This document shows, one piece after another, positions 5,949 to 14,685 of a stretch of 32,765 bases of DNA (the stretch's first letter is position 1; the number at the start of each line of letters is the position of its first letter). The position numbers and the translations under genes were made by a program. The stretch comes from Candidatus Doudnabacteria bacterium (GTDB lineage Bacteria; Patescibacteriota; Doudnabacteria; UBA920), in assembly GCA_031291995.1 (NCBI GenBank), contig JARLHZ010000008.1, positions 1-32,765 of the forward strand. Reading direction: 5' to 3'. The notes beneath the pieces are model-generated. The model did no database searches. It was not told where the DNA came from and was given only the letters and a program-made list of their open reading frames with translations.

Positions 5949-6001
5949 GTAGTTGGCCGATTTATCGGCTGTTAATAATAGCCCATAAATGGGCTAACTA
6001 C
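5949..6001 (+). repeat. REP pair (REPIN-like) between purL and purQ
   Basis: GTAG at 5949-5952, TTG, hairpin GCCGAT-TT-ATCGGC (5956-5969), an 11-nt spacer, hairpin GCCCAT-AA-ATGGGC (5981-5994), then CTAC (5998-6001). The two REPs face each other with GTAG at the outer ends. The stem base pair at position 4 swaps G-C for C-G between the two, so pairing is kept. It fills nearly the whole 61-bp gap. Confidence 0.88.
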
Positions 6002-6008
6002 AAAGACT

Positions 6009-6797
6009 ATGACCAACATTCCAATTAAAATTATCGTACTGGCCGGTTACGGGCTAAACTGCGAGGAAGAAACCGCGCTCGCTTTTAATATTGCCGGAGG
6101 GCAGGCCGAGATTGTTCATATTAACGATTTCATTGACCGGCCAAATTTAATCAATAAATATCAAATCCTGGCCATACCGGGCGGTTTTTCCTACGGCGAT
6201 GATTTGGGCAGCGGCAAAGCTTACGCCAACAAGTTAAACAATCATTTAAAAAGCCGGTTGAACGAATTTGCATCCAAAGACAAACTCATTATGGGCATTT
6301 GTAACGGGTTCCAGATTCTGACCAACTTGGGACTACTGCCGGGCGTCCTGACTTTTAACGACAACAACCGCTACACCTGCCGCTGGGTCGATGTAGTGTC
6401 AAGGGTCGCCCTTGACACTAAGAGTCCGTGGCTTAGAGGCGTAAAATCTTTGTCTTTGCCAATTGCCCATGGGGAAGGCAAATTTACGGCGGATGACGAG
6501 ACGCTTAAATCCATCCAAAGCAAGAAAATGATAGGTGCGGTATACTATACGGGAGAGATGTGCGAGTACCAAAACTTGAAATCAAACCCCAACGGTTCCC
6601 TTTTGGATATTGCCATGATGACATCGGCGGACGGCAAAATTTTGGGCACTATGCCCCATCCCGAGCGGGCCATGTTCTTTACCCAGCTCCCCAACTGGCC
6701 GCTGATTAAGGAGCAACTTATAAGAGCCGGTAAACCATTGCCAAAATACGGGCAGGGTCTTAGGATATTCCGCAACGCGGTAGAGTATTTTAAATAG
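6009..6797 (+). CDS. purQ: FGAM synthase glutaminase subunit PurQ
   Basis: Class I glutamine amidotransferase that hydrolyses glutamine and passes ammonia to PurL. The 262-residue protein has the early GYGLNCEEETA segment, the oxyanion loop PGGFSYGDDLGSG (about 57-69), the catalytic Cys98 in MGICNGFQIL, and the catalytic His in MPHPERAMF near 218. It follows purL across a REP pair, in the same operon. A perfect 27-bp palindrome (6394-6420) encodes residues 129-137, after CRWVD and before KSPWLRG. This loop looks a few residues longer than in typical PurQ. No Shine-Dalgarno site is visible. Confidence 0.95.
   Translation: MTNIPIKIIVLAGYGLNCEEETALAFNIAGGQAEIVHINDFIDRPNLINKYQILAIPGGFSYGDDLGSGKAYANKLNNHLKSRLNEFASKDKLIMGICNGFQILTNLGLLPGVLTFNDNNRYTCRWVDVVSRVALDTKSPWLRGVKSLSLPIAHGEGKFTADDETLKSIQSKKMIGAVYYTGEMCEYQNLKSNPNGSLLDIAMMTSADGKILGTMPHPERAMFFTQLPNWPLIKEQLIRAGKPLPKYGQGLRIFRNAVEYFK
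6393..6420 (+). repeat. In-frame GTAG-headed perfect palindrome in purQ
   Basis: TAGTGTCAAGGG-TCG-CCCTTGACACTA (6394-6420), 12-bp arms without mismatch, preceded by G so that GTAG heads it. The frame is GTA GTG TCA..., free of stops. It encodes VVSRVALDT in a loop. Confidence 0.8.
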
Positions 6798-6831
6798 TAA
6801 AATATTTTATATACCATACAGAATACTAAAT

Positions 6832-8253
6832 ATGGACAATCTTAGTCACAAATGCGGGGTGTTCGGAATTTACGGCAAAGACCTGGACGTGAGCCGTTTG
6901 GCGTTTTACGGTTTGTTCGCGCTGCAACACCGCGGCCAGGAAAGCAGCGGCATTGCCACAGCCGATGGAAACCGCATAGATTGCTACAAAAATATGGGCT
7001 TGGTTACGCACGTCTATAATGAGGAAACCATCCAAAATTTGAAAGGCCATATTGCCATCGGCCATAACCGCTATTCCACCAGCGAAGGCTCCCACATTAA
7101 GCACGCCCAGCCCGTGGTGGTTAACGACCAGTTGGCGCTGGCTCACAATGGCAACCTGCCCTCCATAAAAAAACTTAAGGAATTTTTGGAAGGCAAGGAT
7201 ATTTCCACCGATGACTGTTCCGATAGCGAACTCATGGCCAAAACTTTGGGCTATTATTTGGAACATGGGCTATCAATTAAGGAAGCGGTAATGAAATCCT
7301 ACCCGATGTTCACCGGCGCGTTCTGCCTGACCATTTTAACCAAAGACTCGCTGGTCGCGGTTCGAGACACTTACGGCATCAGGCCGCTGTGCATGGGAAA
7401 AATTAACGGCGACGCGACCGTCTTTGCTTCCGAATCCTGCGCCTTCCACACCGTGGGCGCGGAATTTATCCGCGAGGTCAACCCCGGTGAAATGATTATT
7501 GTCACCAAGGACGGCGTTGAATCTGTTCAAATCGAGCCGAGCAAAACCAAAGTCGATATTTTTGAGTTTGTGTACTTTGCCCGCCCGGACAGCAACATTT
7601 TAGGCAAATCCATTTACGAAGTCCGCCGCAATTGCGGAATGCAGCTGGCCAAGGAATACCCGGTACAGGCCGACATTGTTGTGCCGGTTCCCGAAACCGC
7701 TTATCCCGTGGCCACCGGTTACAGCAAGGCCTCCGGTATTCCCATGGAAATGGCTTTGGTAAAAAACCGCTACATCCATCGCACGTTCATTCAACCCGAA
7801 CAGCACAGCCGCGATTTGGGAGTAAAGCTGAAACTTACTCCCCTAACCGAAGTTTTAAAAGGAAAAAAAATTGTGGTTATGGATGATTCCATAGTCCGCG
7901 GTACGACTTCCAGGCAGCTGGTAAAAATGCTGTTTGAAGCCGGCTGCGCCGAAGTGCATATGCTGGTAAGTTCCCCGCCCGTAAAATATCCGGATTTTTA
8001 CGGCATTGATACCCCCAAACAGGAAAAACTGATTGCCGCTCATAAAACCGTGGAAGAAATCCGGCAATATTTGGGCGCGACCTCGCTGTACTTTTTATCC
8101 TTGCCCGGTTTAATTGCCTCCACCGGACTGTCCGAAGATTTATTTTGCACCTCGTGTTTTACCGGTGTCTATCCTCTGGATATTGGGGAACGGAAGGGGG
8201 ATGTTAAGGAGCCGGAGTATCACCAGGTTAAAACAGAAGGCACTTTATTTTAG
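6832..8253 (+). CDS. purF: Amidophosphoribosyltransferase PurF
   Basis: First committed purine step: PRPP plus glutamine gives phosphoribosylamine. The 473-residue protein has an N-terminal Ntn glutaminase domain whose nucleophile is Cys8 (MDNLSHKCGVFGIYG), implying removal of a seven-residue propeptide. FALQHRGQESSG and the HNRYST loop follow. The type I phosphoribosyltransferase domain holds the PRPP loop VVMDDSIVRGTTS near 345-357. A C-terminal CTSC pair matches two Fe-S cluster ligands of the Bacillus-type enzyme. The usual Cys of the PCFYGID segment is Asp here (YPDFYGID), so a complete [4Fe-4S] cluster is doubtful. Normal length, operon position between purQ and purN. Confidence 0.95.
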   Translation: MDNLSHKCGVFGIYGKDLDVSRLAFYGLFALQHRGQESSGIATADGNRIDCYKNMGLVTHVYNEETIQNLKGHIAIGHNRYSTSEGSHIKHAQPVVVNDQLALAHNGNLPSIKKLKEFLEGKDISTDDCSDSELMAKTLGYYLEHGLSIKEAVMKSYPMFTGAFCLTILTKDSLVAVRDTYGIRPLCMGKINGDATVFASESCAFHTVGAEFIREVNPGEMIIVTKDGVESVQIEPSKTKVDIFEFVYFARPDSNILGKSIYEVRRNCGMQLAKEYPVQADIVVPVPETAYPVATGYSKASGIPMEMALVKNRYIHRTFIQPEQHSRDLGVKLKLTPLTEVLKGKKIVVMDDSIVRGTTSRQLVKMLFEAGCAEVHMLVSSPPVKYPDFYGIDTPKQEKLIAAHKTVEEIRQYLGATSLYFLSLPGLIASTGLSEDLFCTSCFTGVYPLDIGERKGDVKEPEYHQVKTEGTLF

Positions 8254-8275
8254 TAATTCGTTATTCGGCAGCGAA

Positions 8276-8339
8276 GCGCGTATCGGTTTACGGATTACGG
8301 CATACGGCCGAACACCGATAACCGTCAGACGCTACGCGC
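8276..8339. repeat. Decayed repeat in the purF-purN gap
   Basis: GCGCGTA (8276-8282) and TACGCGC (8333-8339) bracket a stretch with three near-direct units TTACGG, ATTACGG, CATACGG and a TATCGG/CCGATA pairing. The 116-bp gap (8254-8369) has no gene and no clear promoter. It is likely an old mobile palindrome. Confidence 0.4.
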
Positions 8340-8369
8340 GGCGCCACCGACCACCGCTTAACCCAAACT

Positions 8370-8975
8370 ATGAATCTCGTAATTCTCATTTCCAATGCCG
8401 GGATCGGCACGAACCTGCAGGCAATTATAGATGGGGTTGAGGCCGGTCAAATTAATGGCAGAATAGCGGCCGTGGTGTGCGACCAGCCGGACGCGCCGGG
8501 CCTGGAACGCGCCCGGAAATATAACCTGCCGGTTGAAATCTGCGCGAAAAAAGAAGACCTCCTTCCCCTGCTCAAAAAACTCAACCCCGATTATATTTGC
8601 CTGGCCGGATGGAAGCAAATTATTTTGGACGAAGTAATTTTGGCATTTCCGAATAAAATCTTAAATCTGCATCCGGGACTGATTCCAGACACCATCGACG
8701 GAATAATAAAAAACCCGGACGGTTCCCCCGCTCTTTGGAACAAAGGGATGCTGACCACCAAGGCAATCCAAAACTTCCTCGATAAACATTCAACCTACGC
8801 CGGTTCCTCCATTCATTTTTTAACCCTAACCTTTGACTTCGGTCCGGTGCTGGGCAGATGCTTTGAAAAAATAACTGTCGACGACACTATACAATCGCTT
8901 TATCAAAGATTAAAAAATAAAGAAAATAGATTATATTCCGGGGTATTAACAAAATTAACCCATCAAACAATATGA
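8370..8975 (+). CDS. purN: Phosphoribosylglycinamide formyltransferase PurN
   Basis: Transfers a formyl group from 10-formyltetrahydrofolate to GAR. The 201-residue protein shows the N-terminal Rossmann start MNLVILISNAGIGTNLQAII, LAGWKQI, and the catalytic Asn and His in ILNLHPGLIP (usually NIHPSLLP). The catalytic Asp is in TFDFGPVLGRC near 161. Between them is a longer, divergent segment (about 109-148) compared with E. coli PurN, so this is a divergent subtype. The stop overlaps the next start (ATGA). Confidence 0.88.
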   Translation: MNLVILISNAGIGTNLQAIIDGVEAGQINGRIAAVVCDQPDAPGLERARKYNLPVEICAKKEDLLPLLKKLNPDYICLAGWKQIILDEVILAFPNKILNLHPGLIPDTIDGIIKNPDGSPALWNKGMLTTKAIQNFLDKHSTYAGSSIHFLTLTFDFGPVLGRCFEKITVDDTIQSLYQRLKNKENRLYSGVLTKLTHQTI

Positions 8976-9307
8976 GCGAAACAAGAAGAGATTTTTTACG
9001 CGGTTTAGGGACAGGTATCGCCGCCGGAGCTGGGCTCGAAAGGGCCGCACGCCAAATGGTCGACCAAATACGTTTTGGATCGGAACTAACCCCGGACGAA
9101 CAAAAGAAAATTAAGGACAAGGCCAACGAGCACGGCATCGACCCGGAGCAATTAATTGAAGTGGTAGATCTATTCCAAAGAAGCGGACAGAAGTCATTAA
9201 AAAAAATTACCGAGACAGTATCTAGCACAAAACACAATAACGATGTACAAGTCTCAATTTTTTCAAAAGACGGAGAAATTTATGCGGAATTTGATTATCA
9301 ACCGTGA
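8972..9307 (+). CDS. Small protein with Tat-like N-terminus
   Basis: An unrecognised 111-residue protein. The start TRRDFLRGLGTGIAAGAG resembles a twin-arginine signal (RR-x-F-L) with a short hydrophobic stretch. A charged helical region follows (LTPDEQKKIKDKANEHG) and a C-terminal strand-like tail. It overlaps the purN stop by four bases (ATGA), so the two are translationally coupled. No purine enzyme resembles it. It may be a lineage-specific passenger of the operon. Whether the organism has a Tat system cannot be seen here. Confidence 0.6.
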   Translation: MSETRRDFLRGLGTGIAAGAGLERAARQMVDQIRFGSELTPDEQKKIKDKANEHGIDPEQLIEVVDLFQRSGQKSLKKITETVSSTKHNNDVQVSIFSKDGEIYAEFDYQP

Positions 9308-9340
9308 CTTTATCATTTTAAGAACCCGGAAATTCGCTTT

Positions 9341-10735
9341 ATGTCCAATGTTTTAATAATAGGTTCCGGCGGACGCGAACACGCGCTGGCCTGGAAACTT
9401 AAACAATCCCCTCGAATCGGGAAACTTTTTGTTGCGCCCGGCAATGCCGGTACGGCTCAAATCGGCGAAAATATCAACTTTGCCGCCACCGATATAATTG
9501 CCCTGGCAGATTGGGCGGAAAAAACTCAAATCGATTTTACTGTTGTCGGACCCGACGATTCCCTGGCTTTGGGCGTAGTGGATGAATTCCAAAAACGTGG
9601 GTTAAAAATTTGGGGGCCGAGCAAAGCCGCCGCGCAAATTGAGGCCAGCAAAGCTTTTGCCAAAGATTTGATGAAAAATAATAATATCCCGACCGCGCAA
9701 TTTGAGACGTTTACGGATTATGAAACCGCCCTGTCGTATCTGGAAAAATATTTTACGAATGTTGCGCAGGGCCCCGGCCTGCCTCAAAAGCAAGCCGAGG
9801 GCTTGCACTACAGCGCAAATAACCCCATAGTTATAAAAGCTTCAGGCTTAGCCTTGGGCAAAGGCGTGATGGTCTGCAAAACTTTGGACGAGGCTGAAAA
9901 ATTTTTGGAAGACGTGATGATTAATAAAATTTTTGGCAATGCCGGCGACCAGGTTGTAATTGAAGAATTCCTGCAGGGCCAGGAATTTTCCATTCACGCG
10001 TTTTCCGACGGCAACCATTTTCAGCTGCTCCCCTCCTCCCAGGACCACAAAGCGGCCCATGATGGCAACACCGGCCCCAATACCGGCGGTATGGGAACCA
10101 TTGCGCCGGTGCCGTGGATGGACGATTTGCTGATGGGTCAGGTCTCATCCGCAATTGTTAAACCGGCGCTGGACGGATTAAAAAAAATCGGCTCGCCGTT
10201 TGTTGGATTGTTGTATCCCGGATTAATGGCCATTACAGCCGATAAATCGGCTAACTACGCTATGGACGCGGGCAACCAATTTATGGGCTCTCCAAAAGTT
10301 ATTGAATTTAATTCCCGATTTGGCGACCCGGAAACGCAGAGTTATATGCGCCTGCTGAAAACCGATTTGTTGGATATTTTCGAAGCCTGCGTGGATGGAA
10401 CTTTGGATAAACTTAAAATTGAATGGTCCAATAAGTATGCCTGCTGTATTGTCCTTGCCAGCGGGGGCTATCCCGGCAAATACGAAAAAGGCAAAACTAT
10501 CACCGGCATTCAAAAAGCCGAAGCGCTTGATGATATAGTGGTCTTCCACGCCGGTACAATATTACGTGACAATAATATAGTAACAAACGGCGGGAGGGTT
10601 TTGGGCGTTACAGCTGTGGCGGATGATTTGCAAACCGCTCTGAATAAAGCTTATGCCGCGGTAAAGCTGATAAATTTTGACGGCAAGCAATATCGCACCG
10701 ACATAGGCCGTCAATCACTATTCACTAAGCACTAA
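9341..10735 (+). CDS. purD: Phosphoribosylamine-glycine ligase PurD
   Basis: ATP-grasp ligase that joins phosphoribosylamine and glycine to GAR. The N-domain starts MSNVLIIGSGGREHALAWKL. ATP-grasp motifs are VIKASGLALGKGV, VVIEEFLQGQEFS, DHKAAHDGNTGPNTGGMG and VIEFNSRFGDPETQ. At 464 residues it is about 35-40 longer than typical PurD. The excess falls in two places that are palindromic DNA elements: residues about 141-159 (before PIVIKASG) and about 299-316 (between GLMAIT and SPKVIEFN). Both lie in loops outside the catalytic motifs, so the enzyme is probably active. The stop lies within a CACTAAG direct repeat. Confidence 0.95.
   Translation: MSNVLIIGSGGREHALAWKLKQSPRIGKLFVAPGNAGTAQIGENINFAATDIIALADWAEKTQIDFTVVGPDDSLALGVVDEFQKRGLKIWGPSKAAAQIEASKAFAKDLMKNNNIPTAQFETFTDYETALSYLEKYFTNVAQGPGLPQKQAEGLHYSANNPIVIKASGLALGKGVMVCKTLDEAEKFLEDVMINKIFGNAGDQVVIEEFLQGQEFSIHAFSDGNHFQLLPSSQDHKAAHDGNTGPNTGGMGTIAPVPWMDDLLMGQVSSAIVKPALDGLKKIGSPFVGLLYPGLMAITADKSANYAMDAGNQFMGSPKVIEFNSRFGDPETQSYMRLLKTDLLDIFEACVDGTLDKLKIEWSNKYACCIVLASGGYPGKYEKGKTITGIQKAEALDDIVVFHAGTILRDNNIVTNGGRVLGVTAVADDLQTALNKAYAAVKLINFDGKQYRTDIGRQSLFTKH
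9762..9818 (-). repeat. In-frame 57-bp inserted element in purD (first)
   Basis: Ends TTGCGC and GCGCAA, 57 bp (19 codons). Inside, the minus strand reads GTAG, T, GCAAGCC-CTC-GGCTTGC (about 9811-9790), a GTAG-headed hairpin. A second GCAGG/CCTGC pairing lies at 9767-9782. It encodes AQGPGLPQKQAEGLHYSA, absent from the family's short loop here. Confidence 0.7.
10237..10289 (-). repeat. In-frame REP pair inserted in purD (second)
   Basis: On the minus strand GTAG (10258-10255), TTA, GCCGAT-TT-ATCGGC (10251-10238) is an exact copy of the operon-junction REP type. An opposite degenerate partner follows: 10275-10288 matches GCCCATTTATGGGC at 12 of 14 bases. GTAG heads face inward. The plus reading frame has no stop and encodes ADKSANYAMDAGNQFMG. 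Confidence 0.85.
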
Positions 10736-10746
10736 GCACTATTCAC
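10716..10746 (+). repeat. Short direct repeats across the purD stop codon
   Basis: CACTATTCAC occurs at 10716-10725 and 10737-10746, separated by TAAGCACTAAG. The purD stop is inside, so the repeat sets the last codons of PurD. Confidence 0.7.
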
Positions 10747-10752
10747 TGCCTT

Positions 10753-11430
10753 ATGATAAAACTTGTCGCATTTGATTGGAACGGGACGCTACTAGCGGAT
10801 ACACTGCCTTCAATTCAAGCTGAAAATTCATTGATGAAGGAACTTGGGGTAAACAAAAAAATTACCCTGCGTGAATACCAAAATTATTTTTGCATCCCCA
10901 TAAACGAATATTTTAAAGCTTTGGGATTCAGTGAAAAATTTTTTGCCCAAAATTCGACAACAATTTTTAACGGTTTTTATAAATATTACGAACCTCTGGA
11001 AAAAAAGTGCCGCACGAGGGGAGGAACCAAACAAATCCTTGCCTGGCTGAACAAATCCCAGGTTGCGGCGGTAATTTACAGCAATCATTTTTCGGATCAT
11101 ATTAAAAAACAAACGGCGCGGCTAAAAATAAGCGGACACTTTGCGGAAATCCTCGGGCGTCCATTAAATGATGACTCGCACATGCGCAGCCGGGGTAAAA
11201 TTGCCTTACTGAAAAACTGCATAAAAAAGCGTGGGCTCCGAAAAGAGGAAGTAATCACCCTGGGAGATACCGAGGAAGAAATAGATATCGGCAAGTCCCT
11301 GGGCATTATAACTGTTGCCATAACCGGCGGGTATAACTCCGAGACCCGGCTGAAAAAACGGCACCCTGATTTTTTAATCCATAATATGTTAGAATTAAAA
11401 AAGATAGTTAAAAAACTTAATTATAAATAG
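10753..11430 (+). CDS. HAD-family phosphatase in the purine operon
   Basis: A 225-residue HAD hydrolase, phosphoglycolate-phosphatase-like. Motif I is AFDWNGTLLADT (Asp8, Asn10 in place of the common second Asp). The helical cap lies at about 20-80. Motif II is the Ser of VIYSNHFSDH, motif III a Lys near 150, and motif IV GDTEEEIDIGKSLG. It is co-directional and tightly packed 17 bp after purD. Its role in the pathway is unknown; it may simply share the transcript. Asn in the second position of motif I occurs in some active HAD enzymes, so loss of function is not implied. Confidence 0.8.
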   Translation: MIKLVAFDWNGTLLADTLPSIQAENSLMKELGVNKKITLREYQNYFCIPINEYFKALGFSEKFFAQNSTTIFNGFYKYYEPLEKKCRTRGGTKQILAWLNKSQVAAVIYSNHFSDHIKKQTARLKISGHFAEILGRPLNDDSHMRSRGKIALLKNCIKKRGLRKEEVITLGDTEEEIDIGKSLGIITVAITGGYNSETRLKKRHPDFLIHNMLELKKIVKKLNYK

Positions 11431-11431
11431 C

Positions 11432-11487
11432 GCGGTTGGCCGATTTATCGGCTGCTCAATTTAACAGCCCATAAATGGGCTAACTAC
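11432..11487 (+). repeat. REP pair between the HAD gene and purE
   Basis: GCGG-TTG replaces the first GTAG head, then hairpin GCCGAT-TT-ATCGGC (11439-11452), a spacer, hairpin GCCCAT-AA-ATGGGC (11467-11480) and CTAC (11484-11487). Same order and orientation as the purL-purQ copy. Confidence 0.87.
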
Positions 11488-11496
11488 AAGGAACAT

Positions 11497-12009
11497 ATGA
11501 AACCACTTATTGGAATAATAATGGGCAGCGACAGCGACTTAAAGGTAATGCAGGAAACCGCCAAGGTTCTGGGGGAATTTGGCGTGGAGTTCGAAATAAC
11601 CGTGTGCTCGGCGCACCGTACGCCGGAGCGGGCCCATGAATTCGCGGCCGGTGCTATTAGCCGCGGACTAAAAGTAATCATTGCCAGCGCCGGCGGTGCC
11701 GCGCATTTGGCCGGAGTAATGGCGGCCAATACTACTTTACCGGTCATTGGCGTTCCCATAGACTGGAAATTAAACGGACTGGATGCCCTGCTCTCCACCG
11801 CGCAAATGCCTCCCGGAGTTCCGGTAGCCACGGTTGGAATTGACAACGGCAAAAATGCGGGACTGCTCGCGCTGCAGATTTTAGGAACCGCCGACCCGGA
11901 CATCGCCAATAAATTGGCACGCTACAAAACCACCATGGCCGACTCGGTAAACAAAAAAGCGGAAAAGCTGGAAAAGGAAGGGTATAAAAAATATTTGGAA
12001 AATAAATAA
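11497..12009 (+). CDS. purE: N5-carboxyaminoimidazole ribonucleotide mutase PurE
   Basis: Forms CAIR, from N5-CAIR in class I enzymes or from AIR plus CO2 in class II. The 170-residue protein shows the PurE hallmarks IIMGSDSDLKVM (about 6-17), SAHRTPERAHEF (about 41-52) and the ASAGGAAHLAGVMAANTTLP loop. AAGGAA lies upstream of the ATG. No purK is present in the window. Without PurK, the enzyme might act directly on AIR or rely on high bicarbonate; the sequence alone does not decide. The stop TAA overlaps the purM ATG. Confidence 0.95.
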   Translation: MKPLIGIIMGSDSDLKVMQETAKVLGEFGVEFEITVCSAHRTPERAHEFAAGAISRGLKVIIASAGGAAHLAGVMAANTTLPVIGVPIDWKLNGLDALLSTAQMPPGVPVATVGIDNGKNAGLLALQILGTADPDIANKLARYKTTMADSVNKKAEKLEKEGYKKYLENK

Positions 12010-13169
12010 TGAGCGAAACATCGAGAACAAAAATTTATTCCCGGGATGGGGTGGATGTGGAAGAAGAATCGGCTTTTAGCAGTTTTGCCGGATCTATTTG
12101 CAAAGCCAGTTATAATAATTCCCCTTACGTGGAAATCCACGATTTTTCCGGCGGAAGTTTTAGAGGACCCCGGCCGTTTACATTAAAAAATTTGCCGGAT
12201 GGCTGTTTTATAGAAGCCTCTACCGACGGGATTGGTACCAAGGGCGTATTAATCGACGCGGCCAAATCCCACAACCTGGCAGCCTACGATATTATTGCCA
12301 TGACCGCCAGCGACATTACGCGCTTTGGCGGCATCCCGTTGGTTTTTATTAATGTTCTGGATTTAGTCTCGGTTGGAGAGGCAGGCGACGAAGTAAGTGA
12401 AACTTACAAAAGCGCATTGCGGGGTCTGGGAGAAGTGGCCAAACAATCCAAGATTGTCGTCTTAAAAGGCGAAACCGCGCAAATGGGTCTTTGCGTTGGT
12501 TCGGAAATTACCGACTCCCCCACTAAAATTAATTGGTCCGGAACAATGATTGGCGCTTACCATAAAGACAAGATGATAACCGGTGACACACTTAAAGACG
12601 GCCAAGTAATTATTGCCTTAAAGGAAAACGGTTTTCGCTGCAACGGCATAAGCGCCGTGCGAAAATCTCTTCGGGTAAAATTCGGCAACGAATGGTGGGC
12701 GAATCCGGAAGCAGCGGAAAGTATTAAGCTGGCAGCAGCGCCATCGGTACTTTATGATGCCTATGTTAACACTCTTCACGGCTGGTTTAGTAAAGATTTT
12801 AAACCGGAAGCTATAATACACGCCGTAGTCCATTTATCCGGCGGCGCTCTAAAAGAAAAACTGGCCAAAGACATTTTATTTCCGCGAGGCCTTTCGGCAA
12901 CACTCGATAATTTATGGGAACCGCCGCAAATTATGAGGCAATGCGCCGAATGGCACAAAGTTACAGACGACGAATTTTATGAAGTGTGGAACGGCGGCCA
13001 GGGCATGCTTTTAATAGTTGATGAAAAAGACGCGCAGCACTGTCTAAGTCGGGCCAAAGAATTTTCCATACAGGCCAAAATTGCCGGACAAATAACTAAA
13101 GAAGATACCCCTAAAATTTCAATCGCTTCACAATTAACTAAAGGTAAAAAAAAAGTTTATAACATATGA
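12009..13169 (+). CDS. purM: Phosphoribosylformylglycinamidine cyclo-ligase PurM (divergent)
   Basis: AIR synthase: ATP-dependent ring closure of FGAM to AIR. The 386-residue protein has FIEASTDGIGTKGVL, AYDIIAMTASDITRFGG, VLKGETAQMG and the Gly-rich GFRCNGISAVRK and HLSGGALKEKL segments. It is longer and more divergent than the E. coli enzyme (about 345), for instance in FINVLDL where FLDY is usual. It belongs to the PurM/ThiL/SelD superfamily, and the operon context makes PurM clear. It overlaps purE by one base and purC by four (ATGA), implying translational coupling. Confidence 0.88.
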   Translation: MSETSRTKIYSRDGVDVEEESAFSSFAGSICKASYNNSPYVEIHDFSGGSFRGPRPFTLKNLPDGCFIEASTDGIGTKGVLIDAAKSHNLAAYDIIAMTASDITRFGGIPLVFINVLDLVSVGEAGDEVSETYKSALRGLGEVAKQSKIVVLKGETAQMGLCVGSEITDSPTKINWSGTMIGAYHKDKMITGDTLKDGQVIIALKENGFRCNGISAVRKSLRVKFGNEWWANPEAAESIKLAAAPSVLYDAYVNTLHGWFSKDFKPEAIIHAVVHLSGGALKEKLAKDILFPRGLSATLDNLWEPPQIMRQCAEWHKVTDDEFYEVWNGGQGMLLIVDEKDAQHCLSRAKEFSIQAKIAGQITKEDTPKISIASQLTKGKKKVYNI

Positions 13170-14134
13170 ACAAACAAACCATCGAAGAAAACATAGGCCG
13201 AGTCTTGGAAAAAACGGACTATAAAAATTTGGGGGCGCGAAGACAGGGAAAGGTTCGGGATATTTATACGCAGCCGGACAAGATTATTTTGGTGTCGACT
13301 GACAGGTATAGCGCGTTCGACAGGAATTTGGCGCTTATTCCGTTTAAGGGCCAGGTCTTGACCCAAACCAGCAAATTTTGGTTCGACCAGACTAAGGACA
13401 TTATCCAAAACCACATTATCAGCTCCCCCGACCCCAACGTCGTGGTGGTAAAAAAATGCTCGGTGATTCCAATTGAAATGGTCGTACGCGGCTATATAAC
13501 CGGGGTAACCGGAACTTCTTTGTGGACTTTATACAATGGCGGCCAGAGGGACTTTGGCGATTTTACCCTGCCGGACGGGATTAAAAAGAACCAAAAACTT
13601 GACCACCCGCTGCTCACGCCGACAACCAAAGCCGATGACCACGACCGGCCGCTGACGACCAAAGACATTGTTGAACAAAAAATCGTGCCGGAAGAGTTAT
13701 GGAAACAACTTGCCGACACGGCGACAAAACTTTTCAAGCGCGGACAGGAAGTCGCTCTGTCCCGCGGTTTGATTCTCGTCGACACTAAATATGAATTCGG
13801 CCTGGCGGAAGACGGCAAGCTGATGTTGATAGACGAAATCCACACGCCCGATTCGTCTCGCTATTGGCAGGCCGATTCGTATCAACGGCGCATTAATGCC
13901 GGGCAGGAGCCGCAAAACTTTGACAAGGAATTTTTAAGGCTGTGGTTTAAGCAAAACTCCGACCCGTATAACGACAAAACCCTGCCGCCGGCCCCGGCCG
14001 ACATGGTCGCCGAATTGTCGTCGCGATACATTCAAATATACGAGCAAATTACCGGGGAAAAATTTGAGACGGATTTAGAAACGCAGATTGGGGAAAGAAT
14101 AGCGGAAAATCTGAAGCAGTTCCAAATAAACTGA
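13166..14134 (+). CDS. purC: SAICAR synthase PurC (long form)
   Basis: ATP-dependent joining of CAIR and aspartate to SAICAR. The 322-residue protein is of the longer, yeast-like type rather than the 240-residue form. Motifs are GKVRDIY near 29-35, STDRYSAFDR, IPIEMVVRGYITG, LSRGLILVDTKYEFGL and IDEIHTPDSSRYW. It starts within the purM stop (ATGA). The following 109-bp gap is filled with REPs in front of the RAYT gene. Confidence 0.95.
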   Translation: MNKQTIEENIGRVLEKTDYKNLGARRQGKVRDIYTQPDKIILVSTDRYSAFDRNLALIPFKGQVLTQTSKFWFDQTKDIIQNHIISSPDPNVVVVKKCSVIPIEMVVRGYITGVTGTSLWTLYNGGQRDFGDFTLPDGIKKNQKLDHPLLTPTTKADDHDRPLTTKDIVEQKIVPEELWKQLADTATKLFKRGQEVALSRGLILVDTKYEFGLAEDGKLMLIDEIHTPDSSRYWQADSYQRRINAGQEPQNFDKEFLRLWFKQNSDPYNDKTLPPAPADMVAELSSRYIQIYEQITGEKFETDLETQIGERIAENLKQFQIN

Positions 14135-14136
14135 TC

Positions 14137-14228
14137 GCCGATAAATCGGCACGCTACATATCCGTAACGTACGAAAACACAGGCTGTAGCGTGCCCAAAT
14201 ACCAACTGTAGCGTGCCCATTTATGGGC
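14137..14228. repeat. REP cluster upstream of the RAYT gene
   Basis: Three units. 14137-14157 is minus-oriented: hairpin GCCGAT-AA-ATCGGC, then ACG, then CTAC. 14186-14200 is plus-oriented and truncated: GTAG, CGT, GCCCAAAT. 14208-14228 is plus-oriented and complete: GTAG, CGT, GCCCAT-TT-ATGGGC. All have the CGT linker instead of the TTA/TTG linker of the dispersed copies. Confidence 0.88.
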
Positions 14229-14243
14229 GTTTAAGAACACAAA

Positions 14244-14657
14244 ATGGACGCAAGAAAAAACATCAGGCTTAAACAATACGATTACAAATCTGACGGATAT
14301 TATTTTGTCACCGCGGTTTCCAAATTACGAGCAGACTTATTTTTGGGCAAAGAGGCTCAATTAGAAAAAGAATTGCGGGACTTGCAGGCCAAAACACCCG
14401 GGATTGAATTAGACTACTTTGTCACCATGCCAAACCATGTGCATATTATTTTTATCCTGCACAATTGCAAACTTCATTTGGGCGAAGTCGTCCGCAGATT
14501 TAAAGCCAAAGTCTCCCACACTTTTGGACAAAACATCTGGCAGGCAAATTATTATGAACATGTTATTAGAAATGAAACCGCACTTACAAAAATTAGGGAG
14601 TATATAAGCAATAATCCTCAAGAATTATTGCTCAAATTCGATCAATTTTATAAATAA
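14244..14657 (+). CDS. REP-associated tyrosine transposase (RAYT, IS200-like)
   Basis: A 137-residue single-domain Y1 HUH transposase (REP-associated transposase, COG1943 type). The metal-binding HUH motif is NHVHII (His65, His67). The candidate nucleophile is Tyr103 or Tyr104 in WQANYYEHVIRNE. The N-terminal strand is YYFVTAVS. RAYTs of other bacteria bind and cut single-stranded REP hairpins that carry a GTAG or GGAG tetranucleotide 5' of the stem. Here exactly such hairpins flank the gene on both sides. The gene is complete, without frameshift, and inserted between purC and purB in the same direction, so it may be co-transcribed with the operon. Confidence 0.88.
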   Translation: MDARKNIRLKQYDYKSDGYYFVTAVSKLRADLFLGKEAQLEKELRDLQAKTPGIELDYFVTMPNHVHIIFILHNCKLHLGEVVRRFKAKVSHTFGQNIWQANYYEHVIRNETALTKIREYISNNPQELLLKFDQFYK

Positions 14658-14664
14658 CTTTAAC

Positions 14665-14685
14665 GCCGATAAATCGGCACGCTAC
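14665..14685 (-). repeat. REP downstream of the RAYT gene
   Basis: On the minus strand GTAG, CGT, GCCGAT-TT-ATCGGC. It is an identical copy of 14137-14157, so the RAYT unit is bounded by 21-bp direct repeats. It is also inverted relative to the REP at 14208-14228. It ends four bases before the purB ATG. Confidence 0.88.

Follow-up and report, generated by a model that had tools for sequence, protein, structure and literature searches.

The window analyzed here, a 32,765-nucleotide stretch of a Candidatus Doudnabacteria bacterium contig (JARLHZ010000008.1), contains a purine operon in which purD carries two inserts derived from REPs. The features of purD are as follows.

9341-10735, forward strand: purD (phosphoribosylamine-glycine ligase), an uninterrupted open reading frame of 464 amino acids with two REP-derived inserts
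About 9760-9811, both strands: second REP pair, in loop 1 of purD, of a GC-rich subfamily, reading NVAQGPGLPQKQAEGLHY
10237-10258, reverse strand: intact GTAG-REP in loop 2 of purD, GTAGTTAGCCGATTTATCGGC, with the core REP at 10238-10258
10268-10288, forward strand: decayed partner REP in loop 2 of purD, GCGGGCAACCAATTTATGGGC, identical to GTAGTTAGCCCATTTATGGGC at 15 of 21 positions

Two REP-derived inserts in the PurD reading frame

The initial annotation had placed a REP, together with a degenerate partner in the opposite orientation, in frame inside a purD gene whose core was intact, and all of these points held on closer analysis. PurD scores 500.8 bits against the purD equivalog family TIGR00877 (cutoff, 288) and matches the Pfam GARS N, A, and C domains. 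The loop-2 REP combines a GTAG tetranucleotide with an imperfect palindrome (GTAG-TTA-GCCGAT-TT-ATCGGC) and agrees with the REP family at 21 of 21 positions. As a single strand, it forms a stable hairpin (-5.9 kcal/mol; z = -5.6) whose stem reaches to about position 10236. Read in the purD frame, the element yields T-ADKSANY, and reverse REP copies in other genes likewise encode ADKSANY. Its exact twins lie at C11:40483, which is intergenic, and at C32:19834, inside the gene for LeuRS. The initial annotation had also equated it with the REPs at the operon junctions; these read GTAGTTGGCC... (5949), GCGGTTGGCC... (11432), or a ATTTATGGGC variant and are near matches only.

The decayed partner begins ten bases past the intact REP and is the sole 15/21 match when both strands of the window are scanned (65,490 positions); by our own estimate, the probability of such adjacency arising by chance is roughly 0.001 to 0.01. 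It encodes AGNQFMG, where intact copies in other genes give VVSPFMG. The two copies stand head to head, reverse and then forward, whereas the usual pair has its GTAG ends facing outward. This arrangement and the decay of one copy make a REP pair no more than the probable original unit of insertion.

The initial annotation had missed the loop-1 pair. Its forward copy is decayed and its reverse copy, at 9790-9811, is intact, and the insert includes the peptide segment GPGLPQKQAEGLHY. The GC-rich subfamily to which it belongs (GTAGTGCAAGCCCTCGGCTTGC) has 4 copies in the genome at up to 3 mismatches, compared with 0 for the control, and the pair recurs in the gene for RNase HII, where it encodes the nearly identical peptide VVQAHGLPQKKKQAEGLHY.

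Mapping of the insert on a structure, as the initial annotation had proposed, was carried out with an AlphaFold2 model of PurD made from 18 PurD sequences. The model has a mean pLDDT of 90.9 and resembles solved GAR synthetases (2yw2; target-normalized TM score, 0.96). Only two segments of at least three residues have a pLDDT below 50, residues 145-157 and 301-314, and both lie within the two inserts; the rest of the model is confident. Loop 2 is modeled as the turn of a beta-hairpin joining strands 288-298 and 318-324. The model thus predicts that both inserts form flexible loops and do not alter the PurD core.

Empty and differently filled sites in related PurD proteins

PurD was found in five of eight genomes of the genus, and the congeneric proteins are 65 to 76% identical to that of the window. 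The closest of these, from genome G003 (76% identical), has GLMLTKDGPKVIEFN at the site where the window PurD has GLMAITADKSANYAMDAGNQFMGSPKVIEFN; its site is empty. The PurD of G017, which belongs to a different genus, also has a short turn and an empty site, as do nearly all PurD proteins of the order and three distant named PurDs. One further PurD (L100) has a modestly longer turn, with a sequence unrelated to the insert. Alignment of congeneric, order-level, and distant PurDs revealed the loop-2 residues in no relative that lacks a palindrome; the initial annotation had held that the same residues encoded by unrelated DNA in REP-free relatives would point to ordinary loop length, and no such relative appeared. 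Because the G003 and G017 sites are empty and the extra residues occur only where a palindrome exists, we regard the loop-2 segment as an insertion. The alignments confirm that a REP was inserted in frame in PurD, lengthening a short turn by about 16 residues. The earlier figure of about 15 extra residues was right as to their presence at this turn and slightly off as to length, the insert being 16 residues longer than the G003 turn.

The same loops hold other palindromes in other congeners. In G005, loop 1 of PurD contains an intact pair of another REP subfamily (GTAGCGTGCCGATTCATCGGC...GCCCATAAATGGGCACGCTAC). A palindrome of the CCCCTC/GAGGGG type occupies loop 2 in the PurDs of G001 and G006 (L019 and L020), and the G006 protein has a third insert of this type near residue 410. 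Across these aligned genes, unrelated palindromes have repeatedly come to occupy two loops of the same enzyme. The gene for MetRS in G003 (L132) also has an in-frame CCCCTC/GAGGGG-type palindrome; like the REPs, and at the same loops as these, this family recurs in proteins of the genus.

A REP-flanked RAYT in the purine operon

In REPIN/RAYT systems, REP hairpins occur in pairs of opposite orientation together with a REP-flanked HUH transposase. The purine operon of the window contains the following further elements.

5949-6001, both strands: intergenic REP pair between purL and purQ, GTAG ends outward
11432-11487, both strands: intergenic REP pair upstream of purE, head of the forward copy decayed
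11905-11925, reverse strand: REP look-alike inside purE, matching the pattern without mismatch and encoding native residues
14137-14157 (reverse strand) and 14208-14228 (forward strand): REPs upstream of the RAYT gene, within 14137-14228
14244-14657, forward strand: RAYT (REP-associated tyrosine transposase), 137 amino acids, Pfam Y1_Tnp
14665-14685, reverse strand: REP downstream of the RAYT gene

The RAYT gene sits 4 kb downstream of purD in the same operon and is flanked by the same REPs, as in a GTAG REP or BIME (REPIN) system with a linked RAYT. Its best NCBIfam match is NF047646 (REP_Tyr_transpos; E = 1.3e-18), with a score of 67.3 bits that nonetheless falls under the curated cutoff of 80. 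The protein, presumed to be catalytically active, has the HUH motif NHVH at residues 64-67 (NHIH in G005) and, from residue 103, a YYEHVIRNE region corresponding to the putative catalytic tyrosine region; both regions are kept in three RAYT orthologs. Orthologs were found in G005 (78% identity) and G002 (63% identity), and the gene is flanked by REPs in the window genome (G000), G005, and G002.

The GTAG REP class has 45 copies in the window genome at up to 1 mismatch, compared with 0 for a reversed-pattern control, and the loop-2 REP is therefore not a chance resemblance. Inverted REP pairs of about 51 to 70 nucleotides were present at many loci. At the same threshold, G005 has 59 REPs and G002 has 11; G003, G004, and G006 have 3, 1, and 2, respectively; and G001 and G007 are intermediate, with 17 and 22. 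No ortholog of the window RAYT was detected in G001, and G007 is without a close one, so the presence of REPs and that of RAYT match imperfectly across the genomes. In G017, from a related genus, 29 REPs were counted and several of them form head-to-head pairs, yet its PurD is empty.

Eight of the 45 genomic copies fall within 8.7 kb (5949-14685) around RAYT in the purine operon. With the flanks of RAYT itself and the purE look-alike removed, four further REPs remain in these 8.7 kb (binomial P = 1e-4). Clustering is also seen on contig C15 of G005, where 10 of 59 REPs lie in 16 kb around the RAYT gene (binomial P = 1.8e-8). REP clustering at RAYT suggests local hopping, and from the correlation and the clustering together we infer that the REPs are probably mobilized by the nearby RAYT.

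The purE look-alike was considered as a further insertion and rejected, since PurE of G001 natively encodes LANKLTSYK in the same place. The segment encodes conserved native C-terminal residues, and either a chance resemblance or an ancestral relation to the REPs is possible.

REPs in coding sequences across the genus

The initial annotation had treated the in-frame REP of purD as an unusual one-off, a view that the genome-wide count does not support: about 10 other loci of this kind occur in the window genome and 13 in G005, and GTAG REPs inside genes are already on record (PMC3733652). For this count, stretches around REP hits were placed relative to open reading frames, neighboring REPs were merged into loci, and the loci were counted manually. 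In-frame intragenic loci made up 11 of about 34 in the window genome. In G005, where the sample comprised most, not all, of the hits, they accounted for 13 of about 36. Four loci that overlap gene edges (C34:1283, C39:2670, C37:4161, and C25:92603) were left out of the intragenic count, as were C7:32522, in an open reading frame without a Pfam match, and C32:14919, in one of 94 amino acids. Family searches identified the affected genes as those for RNase HII, PurH, GlpX, MurC, GuaA, LeuRS, MetRS, and PurD in the window genome and for AtpG, PurH, LeuRS, Pol I, SecA, PfkB, MnmA, and PurD in G005.

All intragenic REPs found were in frame and free of stops. The commonest REP form has no stop in four of its six frames, and the TAG frame is never used by genuine forward copies inside genes. 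Among 21 reverse copies, 17 give the ADKSARY-type reading (which includes ADKSANY) and 4 the PINGHAT type; the underlying reading-frame table has 37 rows, two of which are secondary 2-mismatch hits overlapping other copies. To control for bias, 10 same-strand intergenic REP loci were tested for separated gene halves, and no split gene was found.

Not every site gives as clear a picture as PurD. The SecA insert of G005 is absent in G002 and G004, and SecA of the window genome has an apparent remnant of a GC-type REP (VAQSPGLP) in the same linker. The insertion sites in MetRS and SecA are linkers that vary in sequence and length in relatives, also in those without REPs; net insertion in these two proteins is less clean than in PurD.

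Discussion

It is highly probable, in our judgment, that a mobile GTAG-REP, probably as a pair, landed in the coding sequence of purD, where it is most likely translated as a floppy loop, and that it belongs to a population probably mobilized by RAYT. In such a process, RAYT activity would spread REPs, often to nearby sites, and one of them (probably a REP pair) would have inserted into purD. Insertions in genes would survive only where they preserve the frame, introduce no stop, and fall in a loop or linker. On all of these grounds, the loop-2 REP, at the turn of a beta-hairpin, would have been kept in purD; its translation most likely extends the loop by 16 floppy residues that are presumably neutral for enzyme function. 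The REP population would invade coding sequences of the genus repeatedly, and the copies retained in genes would decay afterwards.

Other explanations have to account for the same observations. Ordinary variation in PurD loop length that resembles a REP by accident finds some encouragement in the look-alike within native purE and in the MetRS and SecA linkers that vary in length without REPs; it is nevertheless very unlikely, since PurD has extra residues only where a palindrome is present, the G003 and G017 sites are empty, and the 21/21 match is to a family with 45 copies and no control hits. The insert might instead have been domesticated: as a hairpin in the mRNA it could regulate the purine operon, for example, or as a loop it could modulate PurD. 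REPs at several junctions of the operon and the stability of the loop-2 hairpin would fit such a role, but sister species fill the same loops with unrelated palindromes or have none, each PurD pair has one decayed copy, and the very low confidence of the modeled loops points to probable disorder; we judge a function unlikely. It is extremely improbable that the insert is removed or skipped, by RNA processing or ribosomal bypassing, to leave a PurD protein without it. Nothing speaks directly for this, the intragenic REPs are all stop-free and in frame although skipping needs no preservation of frame, and the 10 intergenic REP loci that we tested split no genes. A broader proposal, which we offer tentatively and consider rather doubtful, is that the REP/RAYT population of this lineage regularly lives in coding sequence: REPs would have evolved to be readable, as the four stop-free frames of six and the preferred ADKSARY/ADKSANY reading of 17 of 21 reverse copies might indicate, insertions in essential enzymes would often be survivable, and REPs would keep supplying proteins with new loops.

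The 2013 report of intragenic GTAG and CGTC REPs is reportedly the work of Di Nocera and colleagues. It describes GTAG- and CGTC-tagged REPs lying entirely inside open reading frames of several species, singly or as dimers, with dimers or groups encoding 20 to 30 amino acids, a site in recB where two Xanthomonas species have different REPs at roughly the same position, two insertions within one open reading frame, and an association with RAYT (PMC3733652). Our elements share with these the GTAG hairpins in open reading frames, the RAYT association, and the double insertion; they differ in that two REP subfamilies occupy two loops of one enzyme, congeners have empty sites, and roughly one REP locus in three lies inside a gene, in a lineage seemingly outside those covered by that report. 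Rickettsia palindromic elements, the classic example of in-frame insertion, are also selfish palindromes that lie in frame in many protein genes and encode compatible peptides, but they are about 150 bp long, with longer conserved peptides (PMC10969869); compared by description (size, peptide, and tag), the intragenic pairs found here are 51 to 70 bp long, carry the GTAG tag, and have a RAYT nearby. The REPIN/RAYT systems of Pseudomonas and enterobacteria likewise have opposite-orientation REP pairs and a REP-flanked HUH transposase, and are described as mainly extragenic (PMC3116915, PMC8266576); in the present genome, a large minority of REPs is coding. A literature search of incomplete coverage turned up no publication that connects REPs with genomes of the candidate phyla radiation. 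With PurD, in-frame REPs, a known phenomenon, gain a new and dense example, strengthened by the empty sites, the presence of two REP subfamilies in a single enzyme, and the nearby REP-flanked RAYT.

REPs are usually treated as extragenic, and here about ten genes of a small genome have them within the reading frame. Several of these genes are normally essential, and one enzyme sometimes has two insertions, which fits the known but little-studied tolerance of enzyme surface loops for selfish DNA. Congeners with empty and differently filled sites offer a natural experiment that may show by what route selfish DNA gets into proteins, which loops tolerate it, and whether the peptides ever gain a use. 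A practical caution is that domain models, alignments, and phylogenies drawn from such genomes contain recently inserted selfish peptides.

Other palindromic sequences

Three further sequences were noted. PurH of the window genome (L060:3780-3880) has tandem REPs, one of which is apparently interrupted by a small palindrome, CCCGACGCTTCGGTCGGGA, possibly a nested insertion within coding sequence. PfkB of G005 (L091:3570-4577) has a REP pair together with the peptide NPHPDPLPEGEG, whose sequence resembles the translation of a different palindromic repeat that is common in bacteria. The hairpin at 1680-1713 of the window (ATAAAACGTGCG-GC-CGCACGTTTTGT) is nearly perfect and bounded by GTAG, but it bears no relation to the REP families and is possibly a terminator.
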